This document shows positions 18,095 through 63,978 of a stretch of DNA of 64,000 nt, in pieces (positions within the stretch are counted from its first letter, which is position 1; each line of letters starts with the position of its first letter). Below the pieces are notes generated by a model. The model was given only the letters and a program-made list of their open reading frames with translations, was not told the DNA's origin and did not search any database. Both the position numbers and the translations under genes were made by a program. The stretch comes from Echinarachnius parma (lineage: Eukaryota; Echinodermata; Echinoidea; Clypeasteroida; Echinarachniidae): positions 1-64,000 of the forward strand of contig JBAMJV010004337.1 in the NCBI GenBank assembly GCA_037951105.1. Reading direction: 5' to 3'.

Positions 18095-18179
18095 ATTGGT
18101 GAATACCTCTTTTTTTTTCTTTTCTTTTTTTGACTTGTCAAGTGAAAATGGTATAATCATATACGGGCAAAAAGTGCCC

Positions 18180-20100: not shown

Positions 20101-20169
20101 ATGGCGGTCGAAGGCTGTGGCCCGAAATTGGCAAAAATGCTTCTGTTCGTATTCAACTTCCTTCTTCTG
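20101..20169 (+). CDS. Tetraspanin 1, exon 1 (start, first half of TM1)
   Basis: 23 codons from ATG in AAAATGG context to a GTGAGT donor. The peptide begins MAVEGCGPKLAKML and turns hydrophobic. The short basic stretch (PKLAK) just before TM1 and the N-terminal Cys6 (possible palmitoylation) are normal for tetraspanins. The first exon of gene 2 starts similarly (MVAGIGAKLAKLL). Confidence 0.9.
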
Positions 20170-26100: not shown

Positions 26101-29100
26101 TCATAAAGAGAGATACAATTTTAGGACATAAGTGGTTGCCAGTTTTTTTTTAGCAAAGCAGTGATTGAAATTGTCTACAAATTAATATTCACGCCCTGTG
26201 GTTTTAGCCATTCCCGTCAGAGATACTATTAATTATGGCAACAGTGTTATTACATAATTATGAGGGTAAATACATTGAGTGTGTGTTTTGTTTTGTTTAA
26301 AGAACCCTGTCAAAGTTGTTGGCAACATCTCTGACACCGGTCTCCAAGCCTTCAAGTCTCCAAAGGCCGCGTACATAGGTTCCTCCTATCGAACACGTGA
26401 TTGTTAATTTTGGGTTTAATTGTTACCATATATTTTTTAATTGTGATCCTTTTATTTGTATTTGAGCTGCAGTGAATCACTTGATTGGCCTTCCGGAGCT
26501 TCACCAAGGCTCTGGTGGGCTATTGTTCGCAATTGCATTCTATATAAAGAAGAGAAAAAAGGAAAAAAAAGTATCAGTTAATTAAATTTGTATTGGTCTT
26601 TTTAATTGAATGTCACTTCCACGTGATAGTGATTAAATGAGGAAAACAGTGAAAAACGGAAACAAAGTATGATTATAGACTTTATTACCAACATTAAAAC
26701 TAACCTTATCTTGGAGCTGTATGTACACAATGTTATAAGATAAACGAAACGTGGTAAGCCGATAATGACAATGACTGGTACTATTATGACGGACCATTCG
26801 TGACGTCAATGGTCAAAACCCGGGGTCAAGTTTGCTGTGTAATGTCCTTAATTATGATAAAAATAATAATAATTTATCATATTTGCAGGCCAGCCTTTAA
26901 GCGCTATTATTAGTCTAAACGTTGAGTAGTATACTGAGTTTCATCTGCAAAATAATACTGTCAAATAAACTGTAGTTCAAAATATTGGCCATATCTCAGA
27001 TTATTTTCTAAAAAGGGATTAGATTGTTGCAGTTTTTTATGTAATTTTAACAATGCAGTAACGTTTAAATCTTAATCTGATATACGAACAGGGCCCGTTA
27101 CAGAAAGAGATGCAATCGATTGTCAAGTTGTAATTAATTGCTACTCAGATCATGTGACTAAATGAGCAAATCTGATTGGTTCAAATGCGTAAATTTTTCA
27201 TAGACTTGCAATCATAGAGTTGTGTTTTCCTATATACAACTCTATGCTTGCATTTGAGTGCAACTTTACACTAGAGTGTACCTCTGCTGCAACGGGGCCC
27301 TTATCTACAATTAATAGCAAATTAGTTCCTGATCAATTCCGAATACAAAGGGCATTTTACAACGGTCTGGTTTTCTTTCGTGACAAGATGTGCAATTATG
27401 AAATTAGGTCGGCATGAATCATTCTTTACGACTTCTGCTTTCGATTCAGTGTAATAAAGACGATTAAAGTAATCCATTAACTTTACAAGATGTTTCCAAA
27501 TATGGTTGCCTTCAATCATATACATGTACCAATATCACCAGAACGATATTGGTGGTCTATCATTCTTCAGAATAATGTGTGAAAGTGACTTAAAAAAGAG
27601 CAATGTTTAACCTTGTGAAAAGAGTGACAATGTATGTCAAAGTGTATTACCTACTGCACATTGGTTTTGACTGCAATCATACAGCGTTCCGGAACGGTTT
27701 TTAATTCAAGCATAATTACGTTCATAATTAGGGAGACATTTAAAAAACTAAAACCCATTTCATGTTTGAGTTTTTGCTATCATAGCCAGAAAATAATGTA
27801 CAAGGGAAATGTGAAACTCCAAGTGATTTCACTTGAATTTGACAAAGTTTATGGATCACTTTAAGACAAACAATACATGATAGAGAATAGTCAACAATCC
27901 GGGAATTTCATAAGCGTAACCAGAGATAGATAAATGAGGGCGGCCGGTCTCAACAGTGGTGCTGTGCATAAATTCAAGTGAAATATGTTTACGAAAGTGG
28001 CCACATTTCGTATTGCAGCCAGGCTATTGTTTAGTTTGCGCAACCTCCCTCAAGTGATCACAATCATGTTCTCTGTTTTCTTTGACTGATATGGGGAAAT
28101 CAATTACTTGGTATTGTTTACACCCTATCCCCTCCTCATCTTCACCTTAGCTAAGACTAATATGTAATTATAATATTCAATGTTTATTTCACACAAAAGC
28201 CACATTTTAAACACACATATACGAAATGATATCATAATAAAGTAGAAAGAAAAACATACAACTATAAGGATGAAAAGGAAGTACATTAGTTTCAAACAAT
28301 GATGGTTTAACATTTTCTTTCATGACATGTTAAAAAGTGTTGACGGTGCCGCTATCCCGAGTGTGAGAGGATAGTTGAATTGACTTGACTTAAATTGAAT
28401 TGAATTGAAATCGGTATATTATTGAATTAAACGTATAATTATATAGAAGCTTGATTGCTGAATTGCGTACACTTTTACAAAGGTTATAAACAAAATAAAG
28501 AAAAAATTGTGAGATTCTCCGCCTAATTATTGTTTGCATAATTATGTTGTTTTCTTTATTGATACAATTTTCACTAGATCGAGAAAAGTATGAAGACCGG
28601 AATGACAAACGCCATCCACGAGGATTACGGGTCGAAGTCGAAGAGCGGAGCCACCGAGGCCGTTGACGAAGTGCAGAAAACCGTAAGACGATGTCGATAC
28701 AAATTTGGGGAAATGTTGTTAATCAACTCATCTTTGATCTTTGATCAGTTTATTTGCTCATATAGCAGAATATCCACTGATTACTGGCGTATAGCTAGGG
28801 GACTCCTGGGCTCGACCCCCACCCCCCCCCCCCCCCCAAGGCTTTTTGGACCCCTTCAGAGGCCCTAAGACAGGCCCCAAATGGCTCGCGCTTAATGCGC
28901 TCGCAGATTGGAGCGCCCCTTGGATATTACTGGCTACACCACTGCCACTGATTATCAGCAACAGTTCCTGGTTTAAAGGGGTAGTACAGTTTTGGTAAGG
29001 CTGAACTTTAGTAACCAAAACCTGCACAGTAACATTACAAACTAACACTAACAGTTATAACTCCAAGATGCTCGAAAGGTGTATACAAAATTACAAACGA

Positions 29101-32100
29101 CTAAGTAAAAAGCCTTTTATCATTTTTAAAAAGAGGCATTAAAACACAAGAGGGCGCTCTCTAAAAAACATTGGTTTCATCCATTTTTCATACAAAATTA
29201 TGCATGTGATGTTTTGTTGAAATAATGATTAAATAGTGAGATCATCAACAACTATTTAAAAACCGCTTTTGAATTTTTTTGAAAAAGTGTAAGGATTTTT
29301 TTTTTTAAATCATCGAATAAATCTGGGGCCCAGATTTATTACGATAAAATCTATATATTGAACCGATTTTGACCAAATAAAGTTTATTCTGCCATGAAAA
29401 TTTCATGTACTTTCAAATTCGACACTCAGTTTTTCATTACCTCACAAAAAATTGTGTTGTGCAGCGCCCTCTCTACCAAAACTGAACTACCCCTTTAAAC
29501 TTGAACCTTGAACCGTGATAAGATTATCCATATAGCAGCGTACTGGGGAAGCTGAGCTATTATATAACGTAGTATGACAATTCATTCTGATTTTATGTTA
29601 TTATTGTTATCATTATGGCACAATCATGAAAGATTCGACTCGAGTGCTATACGGAGCCGCGGACTATTTCATGAACAGTATTCCGTGCTGTCTTCCGACT
29701 GCATCAACAAAGATGTATTAAATCGGTTTGACATCGTTTTAAAGGGATAGTTGAGTTCTGGTAAGGAGAGTACAGTTTTAGTGAAACTGAATTTTTGTAA
29801 CCAAAACCTGCATCATTACATTACAAACTAATAGTTATAACTAGAAAGGAACACAAAATTACAAATGACGTAGTAAAGATCATGTTATCATTCAAAAAGA
29901 GCCGTTAAAACGTAAGAGGGCGCTCTCTAAACACTCATCGGTTTCAACCATTTTGAATAAAATATTGTGCATGTGATGCTTTGTTGAAATAGTGATTAGA
30001 TAGAGAAATAACCAACAACTATTTAAATACCTATTTTGTAACTTTTTGAAAAGAGGAAGCATTTTTTTGAATTTTTAACGGCTGGTTCAAAATTCTCTAA
30101 TAAACCCGGGGCCCCGGGTTTATTACAAATTGTTATATTTATGGATATTTCAGCCGTTTCTGAACCGATTTTGATCAAACAAAGATGATTTTATTGTTTA
30201 AATATTATGCTCTTTCAAATTTTAAACTCAGTTTTTCCATTACCTCACAAACCAATTAAGTAGTCTAGCGCCCTCTCTACCAAAACTCAACTTTCTCTTT
30301 AAGCAGTTCCAGATGGATAAGTTACCGTATAAAGTTTGGTATAATGAGTGAAGAACAACAAAGTTCATGCACAGACTGCAATCTATTACAACCAAATAAC
30401 AGTACTTGGAAACGCCCCACACACATAAAATGAAAAAATATGCTTACCTTAATATACCTACAACGTAAACGAATATATCATAAATAAGATGTTGATGTTA
30501 AGATTTGGACAAAAAAACTGTTTTTAAATTGACTAATTGAACATTAATAGGTTCTAAAATAAGACGATCGTTGACAAAGTTCAATTTAACCGCGTGCGGA
30601 ATCTCGTCTACGCTAAGTACAAAAGATTATGCTAGCGCGCGGTATACTGGCTTGTCGATATCTCCAGCCCATCGGCGCGGACAGGTGCGAACGGGCGGTG
30701 AATTTAGGCCATATTTCCCTGGCAAACATTGGATTTCCTCTAATATTGCTGCATTTAACGATACTAAGGTTCGGATGTTACCACACAAGTCCCTTTTTAT
30801 ACTTATCCAATAATATTGATCAATTAGTTTGGCCAATATAGGCTAGATGTTTTCGGTATACACTTTCCCAATACTGTTATTTGGCTTTAAAGTGTTCTAA
30901 GTCTTTTTATATCGTTTTTTTAAATAAGAAAACCCTGGAATGTTAAGAATTTAACTCTTTAGTTAATTTCATCATTTTATGTGCGTCTTGTTTATGTATG
31001 TCTTTACGTATTAAATTCCTTTTTATATTTTTAATTTCATGAGTATCGTAATTTGTTGCGTAATATTATTTGTAATCATGATTATTATATTTAACAGTTC
31101 AAGTGCTGCGGAGCGTCCAACTATACAGACTACATGTTGTCCCAGCATCTGGAAGCCAACAAGTCAGTCCCCGCATCCTGCTGTAAGGACCCCACGGACC
31201 CGACCTTCTGCCAGCTAGGCCCCAAGGGCCAGCCGATCAACACATACCTTGTTTGGTCCAATGTAAGTATATCGTGGCTGGAATACCTCCTAGGGAGCGA
31301 CGAATGTGCACATTGTGTGCAGGAATGATTGCACAAAAAAAACGCTATGATATTCATGTGAACAGAATTGCGCTATATCAAATAACCGTTAGTATTATTA
31401 GTATATTATACGTATTATACAGAGTGTTCCAGAAAAAACGAAACCGGAATTCATGGCAGAAATTTTCTGTCATAATGAATAATTTCTTTGGTGAGATATA
31501 CATGAATGAAAAGCCCTGTTTCTCTCCTTTCATTTGACGCACAACTTATGGCACATAATTCACGTATGACTGAATTAAAAGAATAGACTTTGGTGTTACC
31601 AAAATTCCATTTGCACGCAGAAAAGTTTGTGTGAGTTTTTAGGGTAGTAACCGTACTTAGTTTGAAAAAGGACAAGGACTGCATAAAAATTCATATTTTT
31701 ATCTTTATAAATAAACGATGCATGCCAGAGAACAAGTACAATGAAAACATGCCTGATATGCCCAAATGAGTAGATAGTTGAGTACGAAGTCGCTCAGCTT
31801 TCCTGACCTAGCAGTTGACAATGGAATTGATGCATGAGTGAACTTACACAAACATGCTAGATCAGGAAAGTTACTAATTTGGGCTGAAATCAAGCTTGTT
31901 TTCATTGTACTTGTTCTCTGGCATAAATCATTTATTTTTAAATCATGAGGTGTCATATTAAAGATACAAATATGAATTTGTATGCCGTGTTTGTCCCTAT
32001 ACAAAATAAGTACCTTTACTACCCTAAAAACTCACCCCCAAAACTCACCCAAACCTGCAATTTCTGCGTTCAAATGGAATTTTGGTAACACCAATTTCCA

Positions 32101-34018
32101 TCGGAAATAATATCGCTAGTGATATTCGTTTGTCTCGCAATGTATGGTCAAACTAGGAATCTAAAAGATCATGACGTTTCATGTGCCGCTGCAACACTTT
32201 GTCAAATGATATTATCTAATGTAGACAATCGGTATTTATGCTCTACCGTGGCTCCCAACGCAGAATCTCACATAAGCGAGCACGTACCCGATAGGTAAAA
32301 AACGGGCGGCATTGATTGGCCGGTGCACACGGGCACGCAACCAATCAACGGGACACTGGATCGGTCCGCCTACCGAACCAGCGTACGATACGTCGCCATG
32401 ACACTCCCCTACAATCCGGCCCCCCACCAATTTCCATTGTTCTAATTTAGTCATGCGTGAATTATGTGCCATAAGTTGTACATCAAATGAAATGTATATC
32501 TCATCAAGGAAATTATTCATTATGACAGAAAATTTCTGCCATGAAATCCGGTTTCGTTTAATCTGGGACACTCTGTACAGGCGACCGAGCGGATTAAAGG
32601 GGATAGCTGCAGCCCATTGCCTCTTATCACTGGCATAAACAAACAAATTACATATGAATAGTTCAATTACAATCCGCTAATCGCAGATTTATTTGGTGTG
32701 ATGAAAGTATACCATGGTTATGAACATTGAAAGTTAATAACTATAGTCGTACAAGGAGGGACCTATTGAAAGGTTAATTGAAATTGACGATAAATTTATT
32801 TTCATTTATAAATCTCAAAGAACCTACACATTGAACAATAACAATTGCACTTTTGATGAAAAAGAAACATTTAGCTGTGAGTAATTGTAAATAAAGAAGT
32901 TATATGCAATCTCCGATAGAATGTTATTTGTCATGTTGAGATAAAGCTCTCAATCATGTAATACAAAGTATTATCTTTCTTTTATTGTGATTAAGAGAAG
33001 GCAAAGAAAATAGTATAATTAAAACAAGAAAATAATATAATTAAAACAATAACATATTTTCTTAATATCTTCATTGTTTTCAGCAGGGGGTATCGCAGTT
33101 ATAATTATCTCGTATCGGTTTAAATGTATTTATCGGTGTTTGCTTTGTAAACTCTTCAAATATTGAGTTGAAGATTGAAATTGACAATAAATGTATTTAT
33201 TTTTTGTCTCCAGGGATGCGTTGAAGAATCGATCAGCTCGGTCAAAGACCACTACTGGATTCTGGCGATCGTCATACTCTGTCTGCTGGTATTTGAGGTA
33301 AATAATGATAAAGAAAATCATAATAATAATAATAATAATAATAATGAAATATTAGTATATTTTGTTTATATAGCCCACCATAGCATTTTTACAGCTTTAG
33401 GGGGTCAATCAAATGGTCAACTGCATTTTACTCTAAAAGTGTATTTAAACAGAAGAAGTATCAATACTAAAAATAAAAGAAAATTGATAGGAGGTGAGCA
33501 TAATGCTTGGCCTTTGACAGATTGAAGACTTTTGGTTGTTATGTCGCCAAAAATATGATCTGGAAGAGTGTTCCATGTTCGAACATATGGAATGGCGAGT
33601 GCGTGGTCTGGCAAGGATGTGCTGTACCTAGTCACACGCAGTCTTTCCAGAGCTGGATGAATTATACATTAATAGTAATAGCAGTTATAATAATTATGAT
33701 AATAATAACAATAATACATTATTCTAATAATGATTATAACATCAATAATAATAATACTGAGTTCGTTATGTTTGCAACAAAAAGGGATACACAATATGTC
33801 AAATTAGCTTCATAACCCTTGCTGTTTTGGTATTCATCTTTATATTGCCTTCTTTCTATTGGGTATTACGTTATAGTTGGGAGGGGAGGTACGTAGATAT
33901 TTGTTTGTTCTTTTTATAGAGCTATCTGCTTCATTTTGATTAATTCTTTCAGATCTTCACAATGATATTCGCCTGCTGTGTCATCAACGGTATCCAGAAG
34001 GGATACGAATATGTTTAA
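20101..34018 (+). CDS. Tetraspanin gene 1, CD63-like (complete, split)
   Basis: Seven exons: 20101-20169, 24371-24562, 25707-25781, 28578-28682, 31098-31262, 33214-33297 and 33953-34018, all flanked by AG/GT and all multiples of three, so every intron is phase 0. They join to 251 codons plus stop (CD63 is about 238). Layout: short cytosolic N-terminus; TM1 about residues 13-38; small loop; TM2 about 53-77 ending FCGCCGAMKEN; TM3 about 88-110; large loop about 111-220; TM4 about 218-241; tail NGIQKGYEYV. The loop has CCG (150-152), SCC (174-176), C185 and C204, six cysteines as in CD63, and sequons at N155 (NYT) and N168 (NKS). CD63-type proteins sort between plasma membrane, endosomes and lysosomes and recruit partner proteins through the loop; the Y-x-x-V tail fits AP-adaptor sorting. 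Alternative last exons exist at 34346, 38609 and 39006. Orthology to CD63 versus a related paralogue is inference. Confidence 0.92.
20505..20670. mobile_element. Family D hairpin element, copy 2
   Basis: Near-perfect palindrome of 166 bp: GGGCCCCGTTGCAGAAAGAG on the left and the complement on the right, inner arms ATACAATCGATTGTAAGTTA and complement, and a loop containing CAACCAATCAGATTTGCC. Long, well-preserved arms imply it is young or recently gene-converted. Confidence 0.9.
20778..21159 (+). mobile_element. MITE-like element, family C
   Basis: TTAAAGGGATCTAGTAACTT on the left; AATGTTACTAAGGCCCTTTTAA on the right in inverted order. Internal landmarks match 2691-3064 in reverse orientation. 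Confidence 0.75.
21988..22880. mobile_element. Mariner-like fold-back element E, copy 1
   Basis: Starts TACAGAGTGTCCCAGA and ends TCTGGGACACACTGTA, with long inverted arms of about 270 bp each (e.g. AAACGAAACCGGATTTCATGG and its complement ATGAAATCCAGTTTCG). TA at both ends fits a Tc1/mariner target duplication. No transposase frame. A second copy is at 31428-32577. Confidence 0.85.
22925..24065. repeat. G/C-run-associated dispersed repeats
   Basis: Includes GGGGCGCCGATCC plus a G-run (22958-22969), the GAAGCGAAGCGACCGAGCAG block (23350-23440) with ...CCCTCCCACAGTAGGGAGC, further G-runs at 23944-23960 and 23993-24008, and a C-run at 24033-24049. The blocks are shared with 7.7, 48.8 and 49.1 kb. 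Confidence 0.7.
24252..24267 (+). other. Candidate 16-nt microexon in intron 1
   Basis: The text TCCTCTTCCAG|GCTTTGAAGAAGATGA|GTAAGTTC has a pyrimidine-rich acceptor and a consensus donor 16 nt apart, 103 nt upstream of exon 2. Inclusion would shift the frame of everything downstream, so it could only act as a non-productive isoform or be a coincidence. Confidence 0.3.
24371..24562 (+). CDS. Tetraspanin 1, exon 2 (TM1 end, small loop, TM2, GCCG motif)
   Basis: 64 codons, acceptor GTTTAG, donor GTAAGA. Encodes the end of TM1, the small loop KQDQYEELFSTDS, TM2 and the intracellular turn CGCCGAMKENVCLLKS. The CCGA-x-K-E-N turn after TM2 is a family hallmark, and its cysteines are usual palmitoylation sites. 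The exon is exactly as long as exon 2 of gene 2. Confidence 0.92.
24563..25706 (+). other. Intron 2 of tetraspanin 1
   Basis: 1144 bp, AT-rich, with a short (GATT)n run near 24711-24733. No other feature recognised. Confidence 0.6.
25707..25781 (+). CDS. Tetraspanin 1, exon 3 (TM3)
   Basis: 25 codons, acceptor GTTTAG, donor GTAAGT. Peptide YFAFILLIILLEIVAGIM then TFVYADE: a hydrophobic helix with the conserved Glu of TM3 (LLEIVAG) seen in most tetraspanins. Confidence 0.92.
26302..26575 (+). mobile_element. Possible LINE 3'-end fragment
   Basis: After TTTGTTTAAAG a codon-like stretch (NPVKVVGNISDTG...) runs to a TAA at about 26405, then a 3' tail with GGCCTTCCGGAGCTTCACC and an A-rich end. 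It lacks a donor site and is not needed for the tetraspanin, so I read it as a degraded retroposon end. Family unknown. Confidence 0.3.
27091..27300. mobile_element. Family D hairpin element, copy 3 (diverged)
   Basis: GGGCCCGTTACAGAAAGAGA on the left, CTGCTGCAACGGGGCCC on the right, inner TGCAATCGATTG and CATTTGAGTGCAACTTTACA. A smaller palindrome (ATAGAGTTGTG...CAACTCTATG) sits inside. Confidence 0.75.
28578..28682 (+). CDS. Tetraspanin 1, exon 4 (first part of large loop)
   Basis: 35 codons, acceptor TCACTAG, donor GTAAGA. Peptide IEKSMKTGMTNAIHEDYG followed by SKSKSGATEA and DEVQKT: the helical stem of the large extracellular loop leading to the CCG motif in exon 5. No cysteine, as expected. 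Confidence 0.9.
28973..29498 (+). mobile_element. MITE-like element, family A (subfamily 2)
   Basis: TTAAAGGGGTAGTACAGTTT on the left, AACTGAACTACCCCTTTAA on the right. This GGGG/CAGTTT variant is shared with 34854 and 39523 and differs from the GGGATAG/GAGTT variant elsewhere. Confidence 0.85.
29739..30302 (+). mobile_element. MITE-like element, family A, young copy
   Basis: TTAAAGGGATAGTTGAGTTC to CTCAACTTTCTCTTTAA. The interior is almost the same letter for letter as 59766-60328, including the deletion of CTCCACCATGCTC and a central GGGGCCCCGGG palindrome. Confidence 0.88.
31098..31262 (+). CDS. Tetraspanin 1, exon 5 (CCG motif, loop cysteines)
   Basis: 55 codons, acceptor TTAACAG, donor GTAAGT. 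Starts FKCCGASNYTDYM, very close to the CD63 family pattern FKCCG-x-x-NYTD. It then has PASCCKD, one more Cys (TFCQLG) and ends TYLVWSN. These give the disulphide cysteines of the large loop and the sequons at N155 and N168. Strongest single piece of evidence for the CD63-like assignment. Confidence 0.95.
31428..32577. mobile_element. Mariner-like fold-back element E, copy 2, with nested insert
   Basis: TACAGAGTGTTCCAGAAAAA on the left and CTGGGACACTCTGTA on the right, with long inverted arms as in 21988-22880. The right arm is interrupted by an insert at 32102-32424. Confidence 0.85.
32089..32437. mobile_element. Unclassified 323-bp insertion with 13-bp target duplication
   Basis: The direct repeat CACCAATTTCCAT occurs at 32089-32101 and 32425-32437; the uninterrupted copy at 22708-22720 confirms a single copy before insertion (CCAATTTCCATTG). 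The insert is GC-richer (ACGGGCGGCATTGATTGGCC near the middle) and has no open frame of note. A 13-bp duplication points to a retroposon or similar, but no A-tail or tRNA promoter is clear. Confidence 0.7.
33214..33297 (+). CDS. Tetraspanin 1, exon 6 (end of loop, TM4 start)
   Basis: 28 codons, acceptor GTCTCCAG, donor GTAAAT. Begins GCVEESISSVKDHYW, the conserved GC-(V/x)-E-x motif with the last loop cysteine (C204), then hydrophobic ILAIVILCLLVFE entering TM4. Confidence 0.93.
33953..34018 (+). CDS. Tetraspanin 1, alternative last exon 7a (tail GYEYV)
   Basis: 21 codons plus TAA after acceptor TTCTTTCAG. Peptide IFTMIFACCVINGIQKG then YEYV: end of TM4 with two membrane-proximal cysteines and a C-terminal Y-x-x-V. 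CD63-type tails end in a similar G-Y-E-x-hydrophobic motif that acts as a lysosomal/endosomal sorting signal. Confidence 0.9.
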   Translation: MFTMIFACCVINGIQKGYEYV

Positions 34019-34345
34019 TAAGCTTCTATACAGCGTGTTCAAGGATCTGCTGACCAAAAAAGAGAGTTGAGATCAAACACAGCCCCTGAGTCATCATAAA
34101 TATCTTTGCTTTAAACACAACGAGAGACCAACACTTTTTAGATTAGATCCGTAATCGTTCAAATATGGTTGGTCAACATAATGAAAGTTTATATTGCCTA
34201 TACAGTATATACACACGTTATTCTAGATGTACATTTTAAAGGTCGATTTCCCTGTGTTTTCTATTGGGAGGACTTTTTGTTGTTGTATTATCTTCTTTAA
34301 AGAGCTATTAGCGTAAATTTGCTTCACTCTGGTTTGTTCCTCCAG

Positions 34346-34411
34346 ATCTTCACGATGATATTCGCATGCTGTGTCATCAACGGGATCCAGAAGGGATACG
34401 AAACGGTTTAA
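34346..34411 (+). CDS. Tetraspanin 1, alternative last exon 7b (tail GYETV)
   Basis: 21 codons plus TAA after acceptor GTTCCTCCAG. It differs from 7a at three silent third positions and in one codon, TAT to ACG (Tyr to Thr), giving GYETV. Flanks are also related to those of 7a (GAGCTATTAGCG before; TAAGCTTATACAG and AAAGAGTTAGAATTAAACAC after), so it arose by a local duplication of about 390 bp including 3' UTR. Confidence 0.85.
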   Translation: MFTMIFACCVINGIQKGYETV

Positions 34412-34853
34412 GCAGCAACATGATAAGCTTATACAGAAACCTGTACCAAAAAGAGTTAGAATTAAACACAGCTCAACAAAACATATACGAAGTATAATAT
34501 GCTTTAATACAAACCCAATGCATAAAAGAAGTAAAATTTACATTACATAATTATGCAACTTGTTTATGAAATCAAACATAATTTGGTGTCTGGACCATGA
34601 TCAACCGGTTGCAGTTCATTCGCTTGTTGCAATCAAGGTAGTTTTATGAATATAATGCCATAGACAACAGCGTTTGATCGTAAGTTTGCGATTGATTGCA
34701 ACTCAACCTTTCAATACAATTTGATTGATTGCAACTCAACCATTAAATGCATTTTTATTTGGGTACTATCCATTGATTCCAACTCGAGTATGTTCATGAT
34801 GTTATAGGGCCCAGTCCTGGGCCCCCGCTGTAAAAGTTGAAATCAATTGCAAT

Positions 34854-35387
34854 TTAAAGGGGTAGTTCAGTTTTGGTAGAGATGGCGCTGCACAACACAA
34901 TTTTTTTTGTGAGGTAATGAAAAACCGAGTGTCGAATTTGAAAGAACATGCAATTTTAAGGGCAGAATAAACTTTATTTGATCAAAATCGGTTCAGAAAT
35001 GGCTGAAATGTCAATAAATATATCCGATCGTATTTATTTGGGCCCCAAATAAATACGATGATTTTTTTGAAAAAAATTTAAAAATGCTTACACTTTTTCA
35101 AAAAATGTCAAAGGCGGTTTTTAAATAGTTGTTGATGATCTCTCTATTTAATCATTATTTCAACAAAACATCACATGCATAATTTTGTATGAAAAATGGA
35201 TGAAACCAATGTTTTTTTAGAGAGCGCCCTCTTGTGTTTTAATGGCTCTTTTTGTTATAATGATAACAGGCTTTCTACTTAGTCGTTTGTATTTTTGAAT
35301 ACCTTTCGAGCATGGTGGGGTTATAAATATTAGTTTGTAATGTTACTGTGCAGATTTTGGTTACTAAACACTGTACTACCCCTTTAA
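34854..35387 (-). mobile_element. MITE-like element, family A, nested in a family D hairpin
   Basis: TTAAAGGGGTAGTTCAGTTT at the left and ACTGTACTACCCCTTTAA at the right, reversed by landmarks. It interrupts a family D hairpin whose arms remain at 34805-34853 and 35388-35505. Duplicated with its host as 39523-40056. Confidence 0.88.
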
Positions 35388-35975
35388 GAAATATACGCAT
35401 TTGAACCAATCACATTTTGCACATTTAGTCACATGATCTGACATGCAATTAATTGCAACTTTACAATAGATTGCATCTTTTTCTGCAAAGGAGCTCAGAA
35501 CGGGTTAATGCAATAGGCAGCAAGGCGGGGGCAAACAATTAAGTCTACCGTCTACACAAAATAATCCACAAAATTACACTTTTGAATAAAGCGATGATAT
35601 CAAATATCCAGAATGGTTGATAAAAAATTATCTCGAATCGAAACATATCATATGTACATAACGGTTGCTGTCCGTGGTGGGTGGATTATGATTTCATTAG
35701 GAAACATAATAAGTGTCTTGATTACAGTTACAGTAACAAACTAATGCTCATGATAGATTAGCCTACTGGTTTGGGTCTTGAAGTCATTTTAGAAAATTGT
35801 TTATCAATATTATGTCATGCTTCTTAGTTACTGGCAAGAATATTAATTTGATGATATTGTGAATTATTATGTGATACTCTAAATATGGAACTTGACGGCT
35901 ACTTAGTCCTATACGAATTGATATAAATATATGATATTTGAATTACATGTATGTATTATATTTGTTGATTCTGTA

Positions 35976-35981
35976 AATAAA
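35976..35981 (+). terminator. Candidate polyadenylation signal for exons 7a/7b
   Basis: AATAAA about 1.57 kb after the exon 7b stop, in CTGTAAATAAAGCAT. Another AATAAA is at 35585-35590. No canonical AATAAA lies between exon 7a and exon 7b, so a transcript ending in 7a would need either this distant site or a variant signal. Confidence 0.3.
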
Positions 35982-36375
35982 GCATAATTTGTGCGTTAGT
36001 TTTTCGTTGAAAAATTACTCCAAAAATTACTGTTGTATTGATGTAGAAATAATTAACATACAAAACGGCTTACGTATACACCTAAGAAACTTTAGTGTTC
36101 ATCTTCATCTTTCTAAATTTGTTCCATACAAAATTGTTAGGTTGAATCAATTGTATTTGATCAATTTTAAATCACTTAAAAAATAACTTTTAAAAGCTTG
36201 CATGCTTGTTTCGATTATTGTTGTATGATTTCGTATTTATTTAATATTACAACAATGTATAAATTACGTCCGGATTTTGTAATTGCACCGTTGATATTAA
36301 AATTGATCGAATAAAAATCCAGTATTTTGTGTAATCTTGAATTTGTAGTTGTACGAAGTTGATAATAACAGTAGA

Positions 36376-36957
36376 CACTGTAGAAATAAAGGTTCAACTT
36401 TGCACCCTTTAAAGGGAGCTAGTAAATTTGTTGACATGTGCAAAAATTGATGAATGGTTGATACAATGTGTAGTGTTGTGATTTGATATGAGTATTGTGA
36501 GAACATTTGTAGTTGAATGGACGTCTTATGGCCGAGTAATGAGCGAAAATGCAAAGTGATATTCACTAACTCATTGCACTGACTTTGTACACGGTTATGA
36601 CTATCCAGTGGATAGTTAGAAATATGAACATATCAATCGTAAATATCTTTTTTAACAAAAGGGAAATTTGAAACCGATCATATAAACATGTCCCGTGCTT
36701 CTATTGTTAATACTAATACAACAAGGTAAGAAAGAACCGCTATAGTTCCAAGTAAGTTTTAAGGATTTGGACAATGTTATAATAGAATCCTTTGAGGTCT
36801 GCACTCTACGGGATGCACAAATGCACCCGTATGTTGCATGTTTGCACCCTATAGGATGCATACCCCATGCCCAATGTGGGGTGCAAAAATGAACCCTTAA
36901 GGGTGTTGCTATTGTAGCAGCTTTAGGGTGCAAACTTGTACTTCATTTCTTAGTGTG
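36376..36957. mobile_element. TIR element carrying a family C MITE
   Basis: Outer inverted repeat CACTGTAGAAATAAAGG...TTTGCACCCT (36376-36408) and AGGGTGCAAACTTGTACTTC...TAGTG (36924-36957). Inside lies a family C copy (36409-36785) and a block of TGCACCC/GGATGCA words. Absent at the matching place in duplication copy 2, so inserted after the segmental duplication or deleted from copy 2. Confidence 0.65.
36409..36785 (+). mobile_element. MITE-like element, family C
   Basis: TTAAAGGGAGCTAGTAAATT, then GTTGACATGTGCAAAAA, GAGCGAAAATGC, TTTGTACACGGTTATGAC, to ACAATGTTATAA. Family C landmarks are in the same order as 20778-21159. Confidence 0.7.
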
Positions 36958-38034
36958 TGAAGTATTTTTCCTCACATTGATTTATTTCAGTATGTAGGCC
37001 TATACGTAATATCCGTGATTATCCGGTCCTCTTGCTACTTCAAATGATATAGGAAAAGTGCAAATTTGACCATAGAATGTAAATTGAGAACATCCGAAAT
37101 GATGCGCAAATGTTTGTTTGTAGTTATTTCAGTGCCACCAATATTCAACATCCTGACTCAAATCAAGTTATTAGCGTCTATAAGATGCTAACAAATAATA
37201 ACTAACTTAATAATCGTATTATGACATATTATCACTGCGTCGCTAAAACAATCAATTAATAGTTGAAGCTGAGGAAGGGGACAAACAAGGCAACGAGAGA
37301 AATGAGTGGCAAAGGGATTTCGATGAGTCAGAACCAACATTTTAAGAAAATAAACTAAAATGGAGTTACAATTTGTTTAATTATTCGATATGTTAGGCAG
37401 TGAGGGGGGGGGGGGGGGGGGGCACATAATTCTTCATGCGGTAATTGCCACCTGTCCCTGCTCCCTCATGCCTGCGTCACTATAATTATAGCTACCCGGT
37501 TACCTCTAACATTCGTAGGTTTTTATATGAAAACATGAATACAATAACATTTATAGTCTTATATGTTCAGTTTCTAAGTAGTTATCATGAAGTAAATGTT
37601 TAAGTTGAATGCACGCCAAACCCTCAAAATATCAAACAATAACAACAACATTTCTCCTATTTGATTTCAATTAACGCCCTCATGCGTCCTAGTTTGATAG
37701 AACTAAGTGACGTGTTCCTTTAAATAGTCTAGAGAGGAGTGTCAATACAGACATTTATTTTTATAATTTTGTTTGTTTACTAATTATTAACTAATATCAA
37801 TCATTTATTGCGCTCATCTGTTTTTCTATGAATCTTCCACCTTGACGAGTACATGCTAATTTTCAAAGTAATCCATTAACTTCATAATAATGTTACCAAC
37901 AGTGATATTTGAGACTTCAGTCATATACAAATATAATACGTGTGGTTTGCGGTTGCACCATGTGAGATAATAATAAGAATAATAATAACATACGGTATAT
38001 GTATATTTTGTTTACGATGCAACCGTGAGCAATA
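36958..38034. other. Right part of duplication copy 1 and junction
   Basis: Unique-looking AT-rich sequence with a G-run at 37405-37421. The junction with copy 2 lies about 37850-38035, next to an (AAT)n tract. No exon 6 copy is found before exon 7c. Confidence 0.45.
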
Positions 38035-38608
38035 GCCCACCAGAACATTATTACAGCTTTAGGGGGTCAATCAAATGGTCAACTGCATTTTACTCTAAAA
38101 GTGTATTTAAACAGAAGAAGTATCAATACTAAAAATCAACAAAATTGATAGGAGGTGAGCATAATGCTTGGACTTTGACAGATTGAAGACTTTTGGTTGT
38201 TATGTCGCCAAAAATATGATCTGGAAGAGTGTTCCATGTTCGAACATATGGAATGGCGAGCGCGTGGTCTGGCAAGGATGTGCTGTACCTAGTCACACGC
38301 AGTCTTTCCAGAGCAGGATGAATCATACATTATTAGTAATACAAGTTATAATAATTATGATAATAATAACAATAATACATTATTCTAATAATGATTATAA
38401 CATCAATAATAATAATACTAAGTTCGTTATTTTTGCAACAAAAAGGGATACACAATTATGTCAAATTTGCTTCATAACCCTTGCTGTTTTGGTATTCATC
38501 TTTATATTGCCTTCTTTCTATTGGGCATCACGTTAGTTGGGAGGGGCGGTAGATATTTGTTTGTTCTTTTTATAGAGCTATCTGCTTCATTTTGATTTAT
38601 TCTTTCAG

Positions 38609-38674
38609 ATCTTCACAATGATATTCCTCTGCTGTGTCATCAACGGAATCCAGAAGGGATACGAATATGTTTAA
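38609..38674 (+). CDS. Tetraspanin 1, alternative last exon 7c (tail GYEYV, Ala to Leu)
   Basis: Acceptor TCTTTCAG, 21 codons plus TAA. It differs from 7a in GCC to CTC (Ala to Leu in TM4, residue 237) and GGT to GGA (silent). Reading frame and splice site are intact. Use requires skipping 7a and 7b, a 5.3-kb intron from exon 6. Confidence 0.75.
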   Translation: MFTMIFLCCVINGIQKGYEYV

Positions 38675-39005
38675 TAAGCTTCTATACAGCGTGTTCAAGG
38701 ATCTGTTGACACAAAAAAAGAGAGTTGAGATCAAACACAGCCCCTGAGTCGTCATAAATATATTTGCTTTAAACACAACGAGAGACCAACACTTTTTAGA
38801 TTAGATCCGTAATCGTTCAAATACTGTTATGGTCAACATAATGAAAGTTTATATTGCCTATACAGTATATACACACGTTATTCTAGATGTACATTTTAAA
38901 GGTCGATTTCCCTGTGTTTTCTATTGGGAGGACTTTTTGTTGTTGTATTCTTTTCTTTAAAGAGCTATTAGCGTAAATTTGCCTCACTTTGGTTTGTTCC
39001 TCCAG

Positions 39006-39071
39006 ATCTTCACGATGATATTCGCATGCTGTGTCATCAACGGGATCCAGAAGGGATACGAAACGGTTTAA
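39006..39071 (+). CDS. Tetraspanin 1, alternative last exon 7d (tail GYETV)
   Basis: Acceptor GTTCCTCCAG, 66 bp identical to exon 7b. The flanking intron and 3' sequence differ at scattered positions, so the exon is better conserved than its surroundings. Confidence 0.75.
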   Translation: MFTMIFACCVINGIQKGYETV

Positions 39072-39522
39072 GCAGCAACATGATAAGCTTATACAGAAAC
39101 CTGTACCAAAAAGAGTTAGAGTTAAACGCAGCTCAAAAAACATATACGAAGTATAATATGCTTTAAATACAAACCCAATGCATAAAAGAAGTAAAAGTTA
39201 CATTACATAATTATGCAGCTTGTTTATGAAATCAAACATAACTTTGTGTCTGGACCATGATCAACTGGTTGCAGTTCATTCGCCTTTTGCAATCAAGGCA
39301 GTTTTCTGAATATAATACCATAGACAACAGCGTTTGATCGTAAGTTTGCGATTGATTGCAACTCAACCTTTCAATACAATTTGATTGATTGCAACTCAAC
39401 CATTAAATACATTTTGATTTGGGTACAAGACCCACTATCCATTGATTCCAACTCGAGTATGTTCATCATGTTATAGGGACCAGTCCTGGGCCCCCGCTGT
39501 AAAAGTTGAAATTAATTGCAAT

Positions 39523-40056
39523 TTAAAGGGGTAGTTCAGTTTTGGTAGAGAGGGCGCTGCACAACACAATTTTTGTGTGAGGTAATGAAAAACCGAGTGT
39601 CGAATTTGAAAGAACATGCAATTTTAAGGGCAGAATAAACTTTATTTGATCAAAATCGGTTCAGAAATGGCTGAAATGTCAATAAATATATCCGATCGTA
39701 TTTATGTGGGCCCCAAATAAATACGATGATTTTTTTTTGAAAAAAATATAAAAAATGCTTACACTTTTTCAAAAAATGTCAAAGGCGGTTTTTAAATAGT
39801 TGTTGATGATCTCTCTATTCAATCATTATTTCAACAAAACATCACATGCATAATTTTGTATGAAAAATGGATGAAACCAATGTTTTTTAGAGAGCGCCCT
39901 CTTGTGTTTTAATGGCTCTGTTTTTATAATGATAACAGGCTTTCTACTTAGTCGTTTGTATTTTTGAATACCTTTCGAGCATGGTGGGGTTATAAATATT
40001 AGTTTGTAATGTAACTGTGCAGGTTTTGGTTACTAAAAACTGTACTACCCCTTTAA
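39523..40056 (-). mobile_element. MITE-like element, family A (duplicate of 34854 copy)
   Basis: Same ends and nesting as 34854-35387, with a few substitutions and small indels in A/T runs. It marks the MITE insertion as older than the segmental duplication. Confidence 0.88.
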
Positions 40057-40644
40057 GAAATATACGCATTTGAACCAATCACATTTTGCACATTTAGTCA
40101 CATGATCTGACATGCAATTAATTGCAACTTTACAATAGATTGCATCTTTTTCTGCAAAGGAGCTCAGAACGGGTTAATGCAATAGGCAGCAAGGCGGGGG
40201 CAAACAATTAAGTCTACCGTCTACACAAAATAATCCACAAAATTATACTTTTGAATAAAGCGATGATATAAAATATCCAGAATAGTTGATGAAAAGTTAT
40301 CTCGAATCGAAACATATCATATGTACATAACGGTTGCTGTCCGTGGTGGGTGGATTATGATTTCATTAGGAAACATAATAAGTGTCTTGATTACTCTTAC
40401 AGAAACAAACTAATGCTCATGATAGATTAGCCTACTGGTTTGGGTCTTGAAGTCATTTTAGAAAATTGTTTATCAATATTATGTCATGCTTCTTAGTTAC
40501 TGGCAAGAATATTAATTTGATGATATTGTGAATTATTATGTGATACTCTAAATATGGAACTTGACGGCTACTTAGTCCTATACGAATTGATATAAATATA
40601 TGATATTTGAATTACGTGTATGTATTATATTTGTTGATTCTGTA

Positions 40645-40650
40645 AATAAA
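40645..40650 (+). terminator. Candidate polyadenylation signal for exons 7c/7d
   Basis: AATAAA in the duplicated equivalent of 35976, about 1.57 kb after the exon 7d stop; a second is at 40254-40259. Confidence 0.3.
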
Positions 40651-41130
40651 GCATAATTTGTGCGTTAGTTTTTCGTTGAAAAATTACTCCAAAAATTACT
40701 GTTGTATTGATGTAGAAATAATTAACAAACAAAACGGCATACGTATACACCTAAGAAACTTTAGTGTTCATCTTCATCTTTCTAAATTTGTTCCATACAA
40801 AATTATTAGGTTGAATCAATTGTATTTGATCGATTTTAAATCACTTTAAAAATAACTTTTAACAGCTGCATGCTTGTTTCGATTATTGTTGTATGATTTC
40901 GTATTTATTTAATATTACAACAATGTATAAATGATGTCCAGATTTTGTAATTGCACCGTTGATATTAAAATGATAAAATGAAAATCTAATATTTCGTGTT
41001 ATCTTGTTTATTATAGCTGTACGAAATTGTTCATAAAATGCACTTAATTTTTGTTCACAGTCACATAAACACTGAAGTGTTATTCTTCATATTATTCTTG
41101 CCGGGTTGGCAAGGTTATACCATTATAGCC

Positions 41131-41347
41131 TAGTCCCACTGCACCGTTTCTCCTTCCGTTTCATATCCGTCCATAATGTATCGAAACGGTCAGTATCTAG
41201 CAAATTTTGGAGTTCCATGACGTTTCGTTTCACGCGACAAAGTATCCTATCCGAACTTGGTCCGCATCATATCGTTTCCTGCGAGTACCTTCCGGATGTC
41301 AAACAGATAGGAAATGGAAGGAGAAAGGGTGTAGTGGGACAAGGCCA
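41131..41347. mobile_element. Small MITE, GCCTAGTCCCACTG ends
   Basis: 217 bp with ends CCTAGTCCCACTGCACCGTT and AGGGTGTAGTGGGACAAGGC, and inner CTCCTTCCGTTTC against GAAATGGAAGGAG. Only in duplication copy 2. Confidence 0.75.
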
Positions 41348-41366
41348 TTAGACAGCGGATTTCAGG

Positions 41367-41809
41367 TTAAAGGAACTAAAGAATACAACGTACTTTGGCA
41401 CTTATTCCATAGTTGATGACTTGTAAAATAGGTCTGCCGAAAAAAAACTCCATGAAAATAAACACAGTAGTGATTTTAGACTAATTTTCTGATGCAAAAT
41501 CTCACTTAGCAGCCAGTTTACGCCCCACCCACATTTAGGGTCCAGAATCGGCAGCGTGATTGACATGTGATTGACAATTCATTGGCTTACGTCATCTACA
41601 GAATTTAGTTCATTAGTCTGTTCTTTAGATGACGTCACATTTTGGCGATTTAAAAGGGGCGTTCCCAGGACAATTAGATATTTACTAACTAGCCCAAAAT
41701 TGATTGATTTCATGGGAAATGACTGTCAAATTCTTTTTCTTGAGGAAAAATTACGTATAGAGAGCCTAATTGTGAAAATTAGGTCATCTAGACGCTGTAG
41801 TTCCTTTAA
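41367..41809. mobile_element. MITE-like element with TTAAAGGAACTA ends
   Basis: Left TTAAAGGAACTAAAGAA, right GTAGTTCCTTTAA: a 12-bp terminal inverted repeat ending in TTAA. 443 bp; one open frame at 41571-41852 (+) is probably chance. Only in duplication copy 2. Confidence 0.6.
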
Positions 41810-42930
41810 GAGGATCAGGGCAGTGGACAGATTTTTATTGTTCGGTGTTTGATATTTGAAATTTTAGATTCTGTTATATAAAAAGTAAGGTACTGTTTGG
41901 CGTTAATAATTTGTATAAATTTAATGCAACGCCAAAATGTTAACAACACCAACAACAGCTACATCTTCCCATTGATTTATTTCAGTATGTATAAGCCTAT
42001 AATACGTAACATCCGTTGATGTCAGGTCCTCTTGCTACTTCATATAATAGGAAAAGCGCAAAATTGATGAAAATTGAGAACTTAAATGTTTGTTTTCAGT
42101 TATATATTTCAATGTCACACATATTCAACATTTTGTGTACCTATAATATGTACATTTAAGTATGCAATGACTCGATTCAAGTTATCAGCGTCTGTAAGAT
42201 GCTAACAATTAAAAACTAATATAGAAATCTTAATATGAATACAATTAATTATCGTGGCAAAACCGTGTTTAATTTCAACTTAATGTATGAAGTACATGAA
42301 GGATGGGAGGCAAAGAGAGAAAGGAGTGGAACCAAAAATATAAGGAAATAAGCTAAAATGGAGTTAACTCAATTTAGCAGTATTCGATGTTTTTTCTTAA
42401 ATTGTCCATAATTGTTAGGCAGTGAGGGGGCAAATAAAATCCGCATGGGGGTAATTGCCATCCACTCCCCTGATAACCTGCGTCGCTAGCGTACCCTTAG
42501 CTCAAAGTTCATATAATTACATGATTGCATACCATTTATAGTTTGTTTAAAGGCTCCGTTTTGAAGTAATTGTTACCATGAAGTAAATGTTTACTTTGAA
42601 TGAATGCCAAACCCTCAAAAGAACAACATTACCAACCGCCACATGCTATACCCATGGTCTTTCTTAATCATGTCTTCCATTGGGCTCACATTTGATTTCA
42701 AATAACGCCCTCATGTGTTCTCATTTGATAAAACCAGAGAGTAAAACAAGTTCCCAATCCTGTCTTCCCACCTCTCTAATAAACTAGGTGCGTTGTTCCT
42801 TATATTCCACAGAGGAGTGGCAACAGTGACAACATTTGGTTTCTTCTTTGTTTTCCACAAATTATTAACTGATATTGATCACTTGTTGCGCTTATTTGCT
42901 TTGCTGTGAATGGTCCACATTTGAGAGTCC

Positions 42931-43414
42931 TAATCTTTACATTAACAGATAAGTTATGATATATTCTTTCACATGGTTGGTGATAAAAGCGTATTTTTCA
43001 GTTCTTGTGTGTGGGGCTTTTCCCAGTACTGTCGTTTTGCTTTGATAAGACGTCACTAGGTGAGAGGTGATCCACAATGAAACGCGGCTGTCGATGATTA
43101 GCTAAACATGATGTTAATATGATTTATCATTGAGGTTCAAGTACATGACATGTATAGTTATATTTCTGGATCCTCTTAAGACAGATAAAGATAACCACAA
43201 CATAGTGCACTTACTTACGAGGCGGAGGCTAGATTGTTGGTCCCCCTTTCCCATTCCAACCCCGAGACTTTGCAATACACCACTCTGCTAATTGGGGCAA
43301 AACCGTCCCATCTTCAGACAAACTCAGCAATTAAATTCCCACCTCGTGTTGGTCAAATCACTTCAATTGCTGGGTATGTCAGCTTATGTTTTGTTGCAGA
43401 CAAGAGTATCTCTT
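42931..43414. other. Intergenic, nothing recognised
   Basis: No exon, repeat landmark or RNA gene identified after the end of the duplication. Confidence 0.4.
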
Positions 43415-43765
43415 TTAAGTGGTCTAGTAACTTGTTTGCCATGTGCAAAAAGTGATGAATGGATAAAATGGATAGAATGTATAATGTTGTGATGTGATAT
43501 GTCCACCGAGTTATGTGTGAAAATGTCACTTTAAATGGATATTGCATGGCCAAGTAGATGGGCGAACGTGCAAAGTGGTATTCGCTAACTCATTGCACTG
43601 ACTTTGTACACGGTTATAACTTTCCAGTGGATAATTTAACAATCTGAACACTTCGATCGTAAATATCTTGTGAACAAAAGGGATATTCGAAAAATCGAAA
43701 CCTCTTATATGCTATATTGGTAATACGAATACAACAAGGTATGAATGGACCATTATAGTTCGATT
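43415..43765 (+). mobile_element. MITE-like element, family C (degraded)
   Basis: TTAAGTGGTCTAGTAACTTG, GTGCAAAAAGTGATGAATGG, TTTGTACACGGTTATAACT, ending near GACCATTATAGTTC. End repeats are eroded. Confidence 0.65.
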
Positions 43766-43769
43766 ACCG

Positions 43770-43920
43770 GAAAGACACAGTGTCTCACAGTGTGAACACA
43801 GTATGAACCCACTGTGGTTCACATTATGAACACAATGTGTAGACTACAGTGTGATCACACTGTGAACACGTTGTGAGCACAGTGTCACCACAGTGTGATT
43901 TTGCCGCACACAGTGTTTAA
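43770..43920. repeat. CACAGTGTG palindrome cluster
   Basis: Multiple ACACAGTGTG, CACTGTGAACAC and GTGATCACACTGTG words in both orientations over 150 bp. The same vocabulary occurs at 57165-57270, 57450-57650 and 59230-59320. Confidence 0.65.
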
Positions 43921-43979
43921 AATAGTATAGCAATATTCAGTTTGCCTTCATGCCCCAACACACTCGCACACAGGTACAC

Positions 43980-44224
43980 ACACATACTGTTCGTAAATAC
44001 ATTCATGCATATACATACATACATATATACATACATACATACATATATACATACATACATACATACATACATACATACATACATACATACATACATACAT
44101 ACATACATACATACATACATACATACATACATACATACACACACACATACATACATACATACACACATACATACATACATACATACATACACACATACAC
44201 ACATACATACATACATACATACAT
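43980..44224. repeat. (ACAT)n microsatellite
   Basis: About 245 bp of ACAT/ATAC repeats with some CACA variants. It abuts the 3' end of the LINE on the - strand, so it may have grown from the element's own tail. All open frames here are repeat artefacts. Confidence 0.95.
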
Positions 44225-44990
44225 TTTTTTAAATTCAGTTTATTGACAATATAAAAAACAGCCAAAGGAAAACAAAAAAGGCAGAAGCCCAAACAAAGGT
44301 CTGTTTCCCTATACACATTTAAAATCAATAAATACAACAAGTATATAAATGATTATTGCATAATAATATTTACAACTTTACAATTAAAACATATTTGAGA
44401 ATTATAAACACTCCTCAGTTAACCAGTATAATAGCTATATATATGTAACTTCGGTGCCCTTTTAAAAGATATAAGGGAAGGGCTATTTATAATATGCTGT
44501 GGAAGTTTATTCCGGTCACGAGCTGTATTTACATGTACATAAAATGAGTTAATATAATAATCTGTTCTAGCAAATGGTACATTTAATTTCAATGAATGGT
44601 CATTTCTTCCAATCCTAGATGCATATATAAATTTGTGTGTAGAGTTTACAAGCATCAAGTTATTTTGTAATTTATAACAAGCAACCAATCTATAGTACAA
44701 TCTTCTTTTTTCTAAGGTACGTAGTCCTATTTGATTTAATAAATGTTCATATGAGGTTTCGCAATCGTTACACATCATCCTAACGCACCGCTTTTGAATA
44801 CGAAAGTATAATTCTATGACTTTCACAGTGTGGGTCCCAAGCAATACAACAATATTCTAAGCGTGATCTTATGATAGCTTCATACAGTTTCTTTAAAATA
44901 TGTGGGGGACAATTAACAAATGATCTTCGTAACACACCTATGAGCTTATTACAAACTTTATATAAACAATATGCCAAGATACTTTTCAGT
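44225..44990 (-). mobile_element. 5'-truncated CR1/jockey-like LINE fragment
   Basis: Two overlapping - strand frames (44977-44780 and 44844-44419) together give the C-terminal part of a reverse-transcriptase protein. It includes RSRLEYCCIAWDPHC, then a second frame with IQKRCVRMM, LRTLEKRRLYYRLVACYKL, HSLKLNVPFART and RDRNKLPQHI. This order (R-x-LEY-x-x-x-x-W; L-x-x-RR-x-x-x-RL; W/RN-x-LP) is typical of the post-RT region of CR1/jockey-type elements. A frameshift separates the frames, so it is inactive. The 3' end reads AATAAACTGAATTT, then A-run and (ATGT)n. Confidence 0.82.
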
Positions 44991-63908: not shown

Positions 63909-63978
63909 GTAAGACAAACAAGGATATAAATATCGTTTCTTTTTACTCTATTTTAAAAGTGTGTATACGTAGACAATA

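Follow-up and report, generated by a model that had tools for sequence, protein, structure and literature searches.

We find that exon 6 of a CD63-type tetraspanin gene, here called gene A, is followed in the window (the whole stretch of DNA analysed, 64,000 nucleotides) by four intact terminal exons, 7a to 7d. Our best explanation, to which we give a probability of about 0.55, is that 7a and 7b would act as competing last acceptors, that 7c and 7d would be spares, and that the tract holding them would be subject to gene conversion. Judged from the sequence, the arrangement resembles a choice between two exons, with surplus copies beside them, more than a four-way switch that has been preserved.

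Gene A and its terminal exons

Gene A is modelled as a complete CD63-type tetraspanin with seven exons and six phase-0 introns. Exons 1 to 6 each hold whole codons with AG/GT borders, and are listed with their identity in another contig that is colinear over this region (C4515; the contig of the window is C4335).

20101..20169, + strand: exon 1, MAVEGCGPKLAKMLLFVFNFLLL, with ATG and a gtgagt donor; 98.6% identical in C4515
24371..24562, + strand: exon 2, TM1 end to TM2, PF00335 match, AG/GT borders; 100% identical in C4515
25707..25781, + strand: exon 3, TM3, AG/GT borders; 98.7% identical in C4515
28578..28682, + strand: exon 4, start of the large extracellular loop, diverging between contigs; 82.9% identical in C4515
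31098..31262, + strand: exon 5, large extracellular loop with the CCG motif, hyperdivergent; 74% identical plus indels in C4515
33214..33297, + strand: exon 6, loop end and TM4 start, AG/GT borders; 97.6% identical in C4515

The protein matches the tetraspanin domain PF00335 over residues 12-242 (182.5 bits against a cut-off of 32.1; E 1.2e-53), and its best match among PDB sequences is Tetraspanin-7 (E 5.4e-24), with the CD63 antigen entry at E 2.4e-6. The CD63L group is defined, in the covered part of its source, by introns 1-6, all in phase 0, and by loop cysteines in the pattern CC-CC-C-C (PMC2650405). Gene A resembles this group in having introns 1-6 in phase 0 and no others, in a model built from DNA alone and compared with the definition by intron number and phase, and in six loop cysteines of the same pattern in its translation (CCG, SCC, FC, GC). 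The GYxx-hydrophobic C-terminal lysosomal signal of CD63 proper is present as a predicted motif, GYEYV or GYETV. Domain, phase-0 introns and cysteine pattern together bear out the preliminary description of a CD63-like gene. Unlike these relatives, gene A has its last exon in four copies, whereas the neighbouring tetraspanin showed a single one in our scan, ending KGEDFA.

33953..34018, + strand: terminal exon 7a, IFTMIFACCVINGIQKGYEYV and stop; intact counterpart in C4515 at 25081
34346..34411, + strand: terminal exon 7b, IFTMIFACCVINGIQKGYETV and stop; intact counterpart in C4515 at 25473
38609..38674, + strand: terminal exon 7c, IFTMIFLCCVINGIQKGYEYV and stop (Ala to Leu); counterpart in C4515 at 29767, intact and with Ala
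39006..39071, + strand: terminal exon 7d, identical to 7b; counterpart in C4515 at 30164, cut by a deletion and reading IFTMIFAYIYEV and stop

Each of the four spans 66 bases, with an AG acceptor upstream and 21 codons followed by TAA, and the 18 bases before the acceptor hold 13 pyrimidines in 7a and 14 in 7b, 7c and 7d. The preliminary description of four intact last exons with these elements proved correct, and its view of them as switchable is supported as anatomy, since they are homologous terminal exons in tandem, each with an acceptor and a stop of its own, as in a cassette. As had also been described, four codons distinguish 7a from 7b, three of them silent and one a replacement (TAT to ACG, Tyr to Thr), while 7b and 7d show zero differences and give the same peptide. 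The generalization that coding differences are mostly silent holds for 7a and 7b, but it had passed over the Ala to Leu change (GCC to CTC) that, with one silent codon, separates 7c from 7a. The proposal that the cassette changes the end of TM4 as well as the tail was overstated, as a single tail residue separates 7a from 7b.

The tails of 7a and 7b, GYEYV and GYETV, are one residue apart within a kept GYxxV signal. The difference lies at Tyr+2, which also counts as P-1 if the terminus is read as a PDZ-type ligand. At most, the choice between 7a and 7b would tune endosomal sorting; if both exons are used, they would represent a natural one-residue swap inside a CD63 sorting signal. The GYExV tail of gene A is similar to that of CD63, given as GYEVM in the covered passages of two sources (PMC5297682; PMC7704260).

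Duplication and apparent homogenization

The offset between the pairs 7a/7b and 7c/7d is about 4.66 kb, in agreement with the preliminary description, whose nested order of duplications is also supported. It had placed the start of the second duplication just after exon 6; by BLAST the repeat starts 72 bases 3' of that exon, beyond an AAT microsatellite at 33301-33345.

33370..36368, + strand: homogenized 3-kb tract, copy 1, with 7a, 7b, candidate poly(A) signals and a dispersed repeat
38032..41036, + strand: homogenized 3-kb tract, copy 2, with 7c and 7d
36969..37871, + strand: old tail of copy 1, two aligned pieces 65-70% like 41964-42945
41964..42945, + strand: old tail of copy 2, aligned to the copy 1 tail

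The two copies of the tract are 96.0% identical over 3018 columns, and the tail pieces far less so (36969-37646 against 41964-42636, 65%; 37724-37871 against 42802-42945, 70%). A run of 25 sites private to copy 1 of the window extends from 34166 to 35077, spanning 7b (P=0.0005 in 20,000 shuffles of 68 sites), and a runs test gives P=0.0016. Because the tails beyond the tract are only 65-70% alike, and because the site pattern is of the conversion type, the 96% similarity between the pairs looks better explained by homogenization of the 3-kb tract, with gene conversion indicated as the process. We therefore set aside the idea that the duplication is young, as the tails suggest an old duplication with a homogenized front; alternatively, a recent copy of the 3 kb only could possibly have been inserted beside an older tail repeat. 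The split between 7a and 7b appears old as well, since their flanks align weakly (16-20% mismatches with gaps, against 27% for a shuffled upstream flank).

The second contig and selection on the copies

When the 7a-7b region was searched against the DNA of the whole genome, four places were found, all four scored, two in each of the two contigs, and both exon pairs stand in the same order in each. In C4515, exons 7a, 7b and 7c are intact and 7d is destroyed, with a net 112 bases missing. Between 33360 and 36300, 19 sites group each copy with the same-numbered copy of the other contig, and the two alternative groupings have one site each. C4515 is probably the other haplotype, although it is possible that it is a recent paralogous block instead of an allele. 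A point against allelism is that among 27 tetraspanin matches only gene A has a second contig at equal score, so that doubling is not a general feature of the assembly.

Having the region on two contigs of one assembly provides a test of selection on all copies, as the preliminary description had it, and here that claim is not supported. Not only is 7d dead in C4515, but the replaced residue of 7c in the window is absent from its counterpart there, and between the pairs no excess conservation of the exons over the surrounding tract was found (3/132 differences in the exons against 79/2787 in the rest of the tract; P=1). The comparison of silent and replacement change that had been proposed earlier, run for 7a and 7b, leans to silent change on six base changes in 66 (dS 0.39, dN 0.046; Fisher 4/12 vs 2/51, rounded, P=0.0099). 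Set against their flanks, the two exons give borderline values, with P 0.081, 0.154 and 0.046 when the flanks measure 60, 100 and 150. These figures weakly suggest constraint, and only in the older 7a/7b pair; gene conversion could itself keep 7b intact.

Proposed use of the terminal exons

We suggest that an ordinary seven-exon CD63-type tetraspanin would have had its last exon duplicated locally long ago, giving 7a and 7b, that the pair would later have been copied within a tandem block of about 5 kb, and that the first 3 kb of this block would have been kept alike by gene conversion. The donor of exon 6 would then face 7a and 7b as competing last 3' splice sites, and these would be mutually exclusive because each ends the message, with its own stop and no exon after it. 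Of the four poly(A) hexamers searched (AATAAA, ATTAAA, AGTAAA and TATAAA), several copies lie downstream of each pair and none falls inside either pair; other signals could still act there.

35976..35981, + strand: candidate poly(A) signal AATAAA for 7a and 7b, picked by its GT-rich context; one of eight AATAAA between 7b and 7c, the first at 34966
40645..40650, + strand: candidate poly(A) signal AATAAA for 7c and 7d, counterpart of that at 35976; one of eight AATAAA between 7d and 43200, the first at 39634

Exons 7a and 7b would presumably share a downstream poly(A) site, so that a 7a message would carry unspliced 7b in its 3' UTR. Exons 7c and 7d would be reached only by read-through of that site, which would leave them as spares, little used or silent, and one of the two dispensable. 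Some use of copy 2 is possible, given an intact 7d in the window and an intact 7c in both contigs. Competing RNA structures as a possible selector were set aside for the 7a/7b region; the three pairs of inverted repeats of at least 12 bases in 33290-34420 all have AT-rich arms.

Alternatively, a single terminal exon, most likely 7a as the nearest, could serve all messages, with 7b, 7c and 7d as duplicates that play no part and owe their intact state to youth and gene conversion. The loss of 7d in C4515, the signs of homogenization with no conservation excess between the pairs, and the single residue separating the 7a and 7b proteins all speak for this. We nevertheless hold this to be possible but somewhat improbable, given that the 7a/7b split appears old from its weak flanks, that in each contig both exons have open frames and good acceptors, and that their differences lean to silent ones. 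More generally, duplication with gene conversion can yield an intact-looking exon cassette.

The four-way cassette of the preliminary description, selected, regulated and mutually exclusive, and varying the end of TM4 and the tail, draws on four exons in the window that have open frames and good acceptors, and on two tail types plus a third peptide from 7c. We consider it unlikely, as the peptides of 7b and 7d are identical, C4515 has lost 7d, the 7c change is missing from its counterpart, and conservation is no higher in the exons than in the tract. It is very improbable that the second pair is an assembly artefact of uncollapsed haplotypes, which the 96% identity of the pairs and the presence of the region on a second contig might suggest. 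Because C4515 has the same duplication, with both pairs in the same order, we reject this reading; the 19 sites that group like copies and the old diverged tails also argue against it. We favor competition between 7a and 7b, with 7c and 7d as spares.

Comparison with known systems

In the portion of the source covered, human Tspan6 isoform 3 acquires an alternative C-terminus and a changed end of TM4 by exon skipping (PMC6773723). The splicing proposed here would likewise change the end of TM4 and the C-terminus, but in Tspan6 an internal exon is skipped and half of TM4 lost, whereas in gene A homologous last exons would be swapped and TM4 would stay whole. The terms "last exon" and "terminal exon" are both absent from that paper. 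Homologous terminal exons, or clusters of them, duplicated in tandem and mutually exclusive, are described for Drosophila pip and for the 3' variable regions of PGRP-LC in the covered part of PMC9013439. Gene A shares the tandem of homologous terminal exons; unlike in those genes, its pairs, known from DNA alone, sit inside a larger block that appears to undergo gene conversion, its terminal exons are 21 codons long, and the inverted repeats in 33290-34420 have AT-rich arms only. Tandem last exons in a tetraspanin were not found in the titles and abstract openings of the listed matches on alternative or duplicated last exons.

Divergent extracellular loops in two adjacent genes

A stronger oddity than the terminal exons adjoins them. 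In loop exons 4-5, dS between the two contigs is 0.36 in gene A, where the other exons have 0.02, and 0.41-0.68 in the neighbouring tetraspanin, where the other exons have 0-0.16. In gene A, exon 4 has dS 0.17 and dN 0.15, and exon 5 dS 0.51 and dN 0.23, with frames open in both contigs. This resembles a long-balanced recognition locus.

The closest other relative found, C4261:52090-52245 (third of seven matches), agrees with the loop of C4515 at 31/52 residues and with that of the window at 24/52. Its 3.2-kb surroundings, compared as DNA with both contigs, match only at repeats and at a piece near 41.7 kb, with no match at the exon, and a recent third-gene donor of the divergent loop was therefore set aside; an undetected donor is possible.

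We tentatively raise, with more doubt than confidence, a two-gene tetraspanin recognition locus, in which ancient balanced haplotypes with divergent loops (with a compatibility, gamete or immune role) would be joined to a terminal-exon cassette of gene A that evolves by conversion and deletion and sets surface-protein recycling. Tetraspanins were not found among the listed matches in the allorecognition literature, and the covered passages of PMC7018956 and PMC9265791 hold no such link. If the loop divergence is a balanced polymorphism, tetraspanins would be candidates for self/non-self or gamete recognition in this animal. A COX1 match with 12 in-frame TGA codons is consistent with an animal mitochondrial code, and indicates nothing beyond that. 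In the covered part of PMC10012309, the large extracellular loop of schistosome TSP-2 is hypervariable within the species, across provinces. In both cases the loop is far more variable within a species than the remaining protein, but the parasite variation is spread across provinces, whereas here it lies between two contigs of one genome and in two adjacent genes.

The tetraspanin gene and its four last exons

Gene A is predicted to be a complete CD63-type tetraspanin on C4335, the contig containing the window (142.5 kb, out of 14,790 contigs in a 1.2-Gb assembly). In the gene model, built from sequence only, every exon has GT/AG borders and whole codons. A PF00335 profile match covers protein residues 12 to 242, the closest solved relative by sequence match is Tetraspanin-7, and intron phases and loop cysteines agree with the CD63L group as defined in PMC2650405.

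Exons of gene A (window, forward strand; C4515 is a second, colinear contig of the assembly)
20101-20169, exon 1
24371-24562, exon 2
25707-25781, exon 3
28578-28682, exon 4, large extracellular loop (C4515:22722-22820)
31098-31262, exon 5, large extracellular loop (C4515:23372-23545)
33214-33297, exon 6
33953-34018, terminal exon 7a (66 bases, as are 7b to 7d)
34346-34411, terminal exon 7b
38609-38674, terminal exon 7c
39006-39071, terminal exon 7d

The window does contain the four last exons of the preliminary description, all intact, 7a and 7c terminating in GYEYV and 7b and 7d in GYETV, with 13-14 pyrimidines out of 18 at their acceptors. When 114 kb of C4335 and the whole 72 kb of C4515 were scanned with the 21-residue peptide, the former gave all four and the latter three intact ones. 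The scan also picked up one more distant exon at C4335:70682, within the neighbouring tetraspanin gene B, and a weak minus-strand match at C4335:2271, apparently a chance one; no last-exon match came from the other 28.5 kb of C4335. Another tetraspanin last exon, at C4486:22865, ends in SEYEVV. The cassette would be a known kind of arrangement, tandem terminal exons, in a new form and with putative expression. A tRNA gene lies at 14747-14818 (Rfam RF00005, 56.5 bits).

Neither the 7a-7b interval nor the 7c-7d interval holds any of four common poly(A) hexamers. AATAAA occurs eight times between 7b and 7c (34966 to 37349) and eight times between 7d and 43200; by their GT-rich context we favour 35976 and its counterpart 40645 as candidate poly(A) signals. 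In the simplest working model 7a and 7b would compete for the exon 6 donor, their messages would share a 3′ end, and only read-through would give access to 7c and 7d. We infer expression, poly(A) use and any sorting effect of the cassette.

Eight copies of a dispersed repeat, each about 500-570 bases long, are spread over the two strands of the window:
4347-4908
6908-7473
17528-18095
28983-29503
29739-30302
34852-35368
39521-40038
59766-60328

The copy in intron 4, at 29007-29503, has the opposite orientation to those following 7b and 7d (85.8%), and could therefore pair with them in the transcript; there is no copy at the corresponding C4515 position.

Age, probable homogenisation and selection

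Apart from numerous insertions, C4515 (71.9 kb) runs colinear with C4335 between about 9.8 kb and 70.1 kb. Since both exon pairs are also found there, the second pair is not an uncollapsed-haplotype artefact. In a four-way alignment of the duplicated tract (2803 ungapped columns, 33360 to 36300), 19 sites group each copy with its counterpart in the other contig, and the other two groupings are backed by one site each, so that the duplication predates the split of the contigs. Among the 40 of 2414 candidates that were scored, 42000-43200 occurs full-length twice, in C4335 and C4515, at 100% identity; the remaining 38 are a short repeat. We read C4515 as the other haplotype. It may instead be a recent paralogous block, and against allelism none of the others among 27 tetraspanin matches is paired across contigs like gene A. 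Across 40146-45153 one substitution and eight gap columns are all that separates the contigs; about 10 kb away they differ by 11-30%. A GACGTC-rich minisatellite (70-base units, about 25 copies) occupies 50150-51921, and the stretch holding it, 47.2-52.0 kb, has no C4515 match.

The likeness of the two exon pairs looks like the product of homogenisation. The tails outside the 96% tract are 65-70% alike, and a 25-site run private to the window's copy 1 (34166-35077, spanning 7b) is unbroken by copy-separating sites (P=0.0005, 20,000 shuffles; runs test P=0.0016), as expected if copy 2 overwrote copy 1 in C4515.

The proposal that selection maintains all copies is not supported. In C4515, 7d is destroyed: two bases stand in place of 39028-39141 (net loss 112) and the remnant translates as IFTMIFAYIYEV followed by a stop. 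7c has an Ala to Leu change in the window that its intact C4515 counterpart lacks, and between the pairs the exons show no more conservation than the remainder of the tract (differences at 3/132 vs 79/2787, P=1). Weak constraint shows between 7a and 7b, which lean towards silent change (dS 0.39, dN 0.046; 3.75 silent and 2.25 replacement changes; Fisher on rounded counts, 4/12 vs 2/51, P=0.0099), with three of the six base changes falling in a single codon (TAT to ACG). Their exon-versus-flank comparison is borderline, given P values of 0.081, 0.154 and 0.046 at flanks of 60, 100 and 150 bases. The observation of the preliminary description is confirmed and its interpretation partly supported.

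Hyperdivergent loop exons

The hyperdivergence of the loop exons is a stronger oddity than the cassette beside it. Identity between the contigs is 97.6-100% in exons 1, 2, 3 and 6 of gene A but 82.9% and 74% in loop exons 4 and 5, which have in-frame indels and stay open in both contigs. Joint dS is 0.36 for exons 4-5 (0.17 and 0.51 separately) vs 0.02 for the others (P=3.5e-6 for silent divergence, rounded counts). Contig divergence changes by degrees: from 0-1.5% at 24.1-26.7 kb it rises to 5.5-18% over 27.4-28.9 kb and to 11-30% at 30.9-31.3 kb, then falls to 4-6% at 32.6-33.5 kb and 2-4% at 33.5-35.9 kb. Most of 29.0-30.9 kb lacks an alignable counterpart, and the loop exons sit at the top of this gradual peak.

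Gene B, downstream of gene A (54906-63911, last exon C4335:70682-70747, extending past the window end; C4515:43903-69789), is likewise hyperdivergent in its loop, with 21/36 residues of exon 4 and 28/51 of exon 5 identical between contigs, and dS of 0.68 and 0.41, vs 0-0.16 in exons 1, 2, 3 and 6 (P=5.3e-5, rounded counts). Its last exon was not found by the peptide scan in C4515, which ends near there.

Long-term balancing selection leaves a gradual divergence peak, and the gene A loop exons are a candidate for such a balanced polymorphism. Ancient introgression and paralogous conversion are alternative sources of the divergence, as is C4515 being a paralogue. Diversifying selection is not supported, because dN is below dS in the loops of both genes. 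A third tetraspanin loop exon, at C4261:52090-52245, shares 31/52 residues with the C4515 loop and 24/52 with that of the window.
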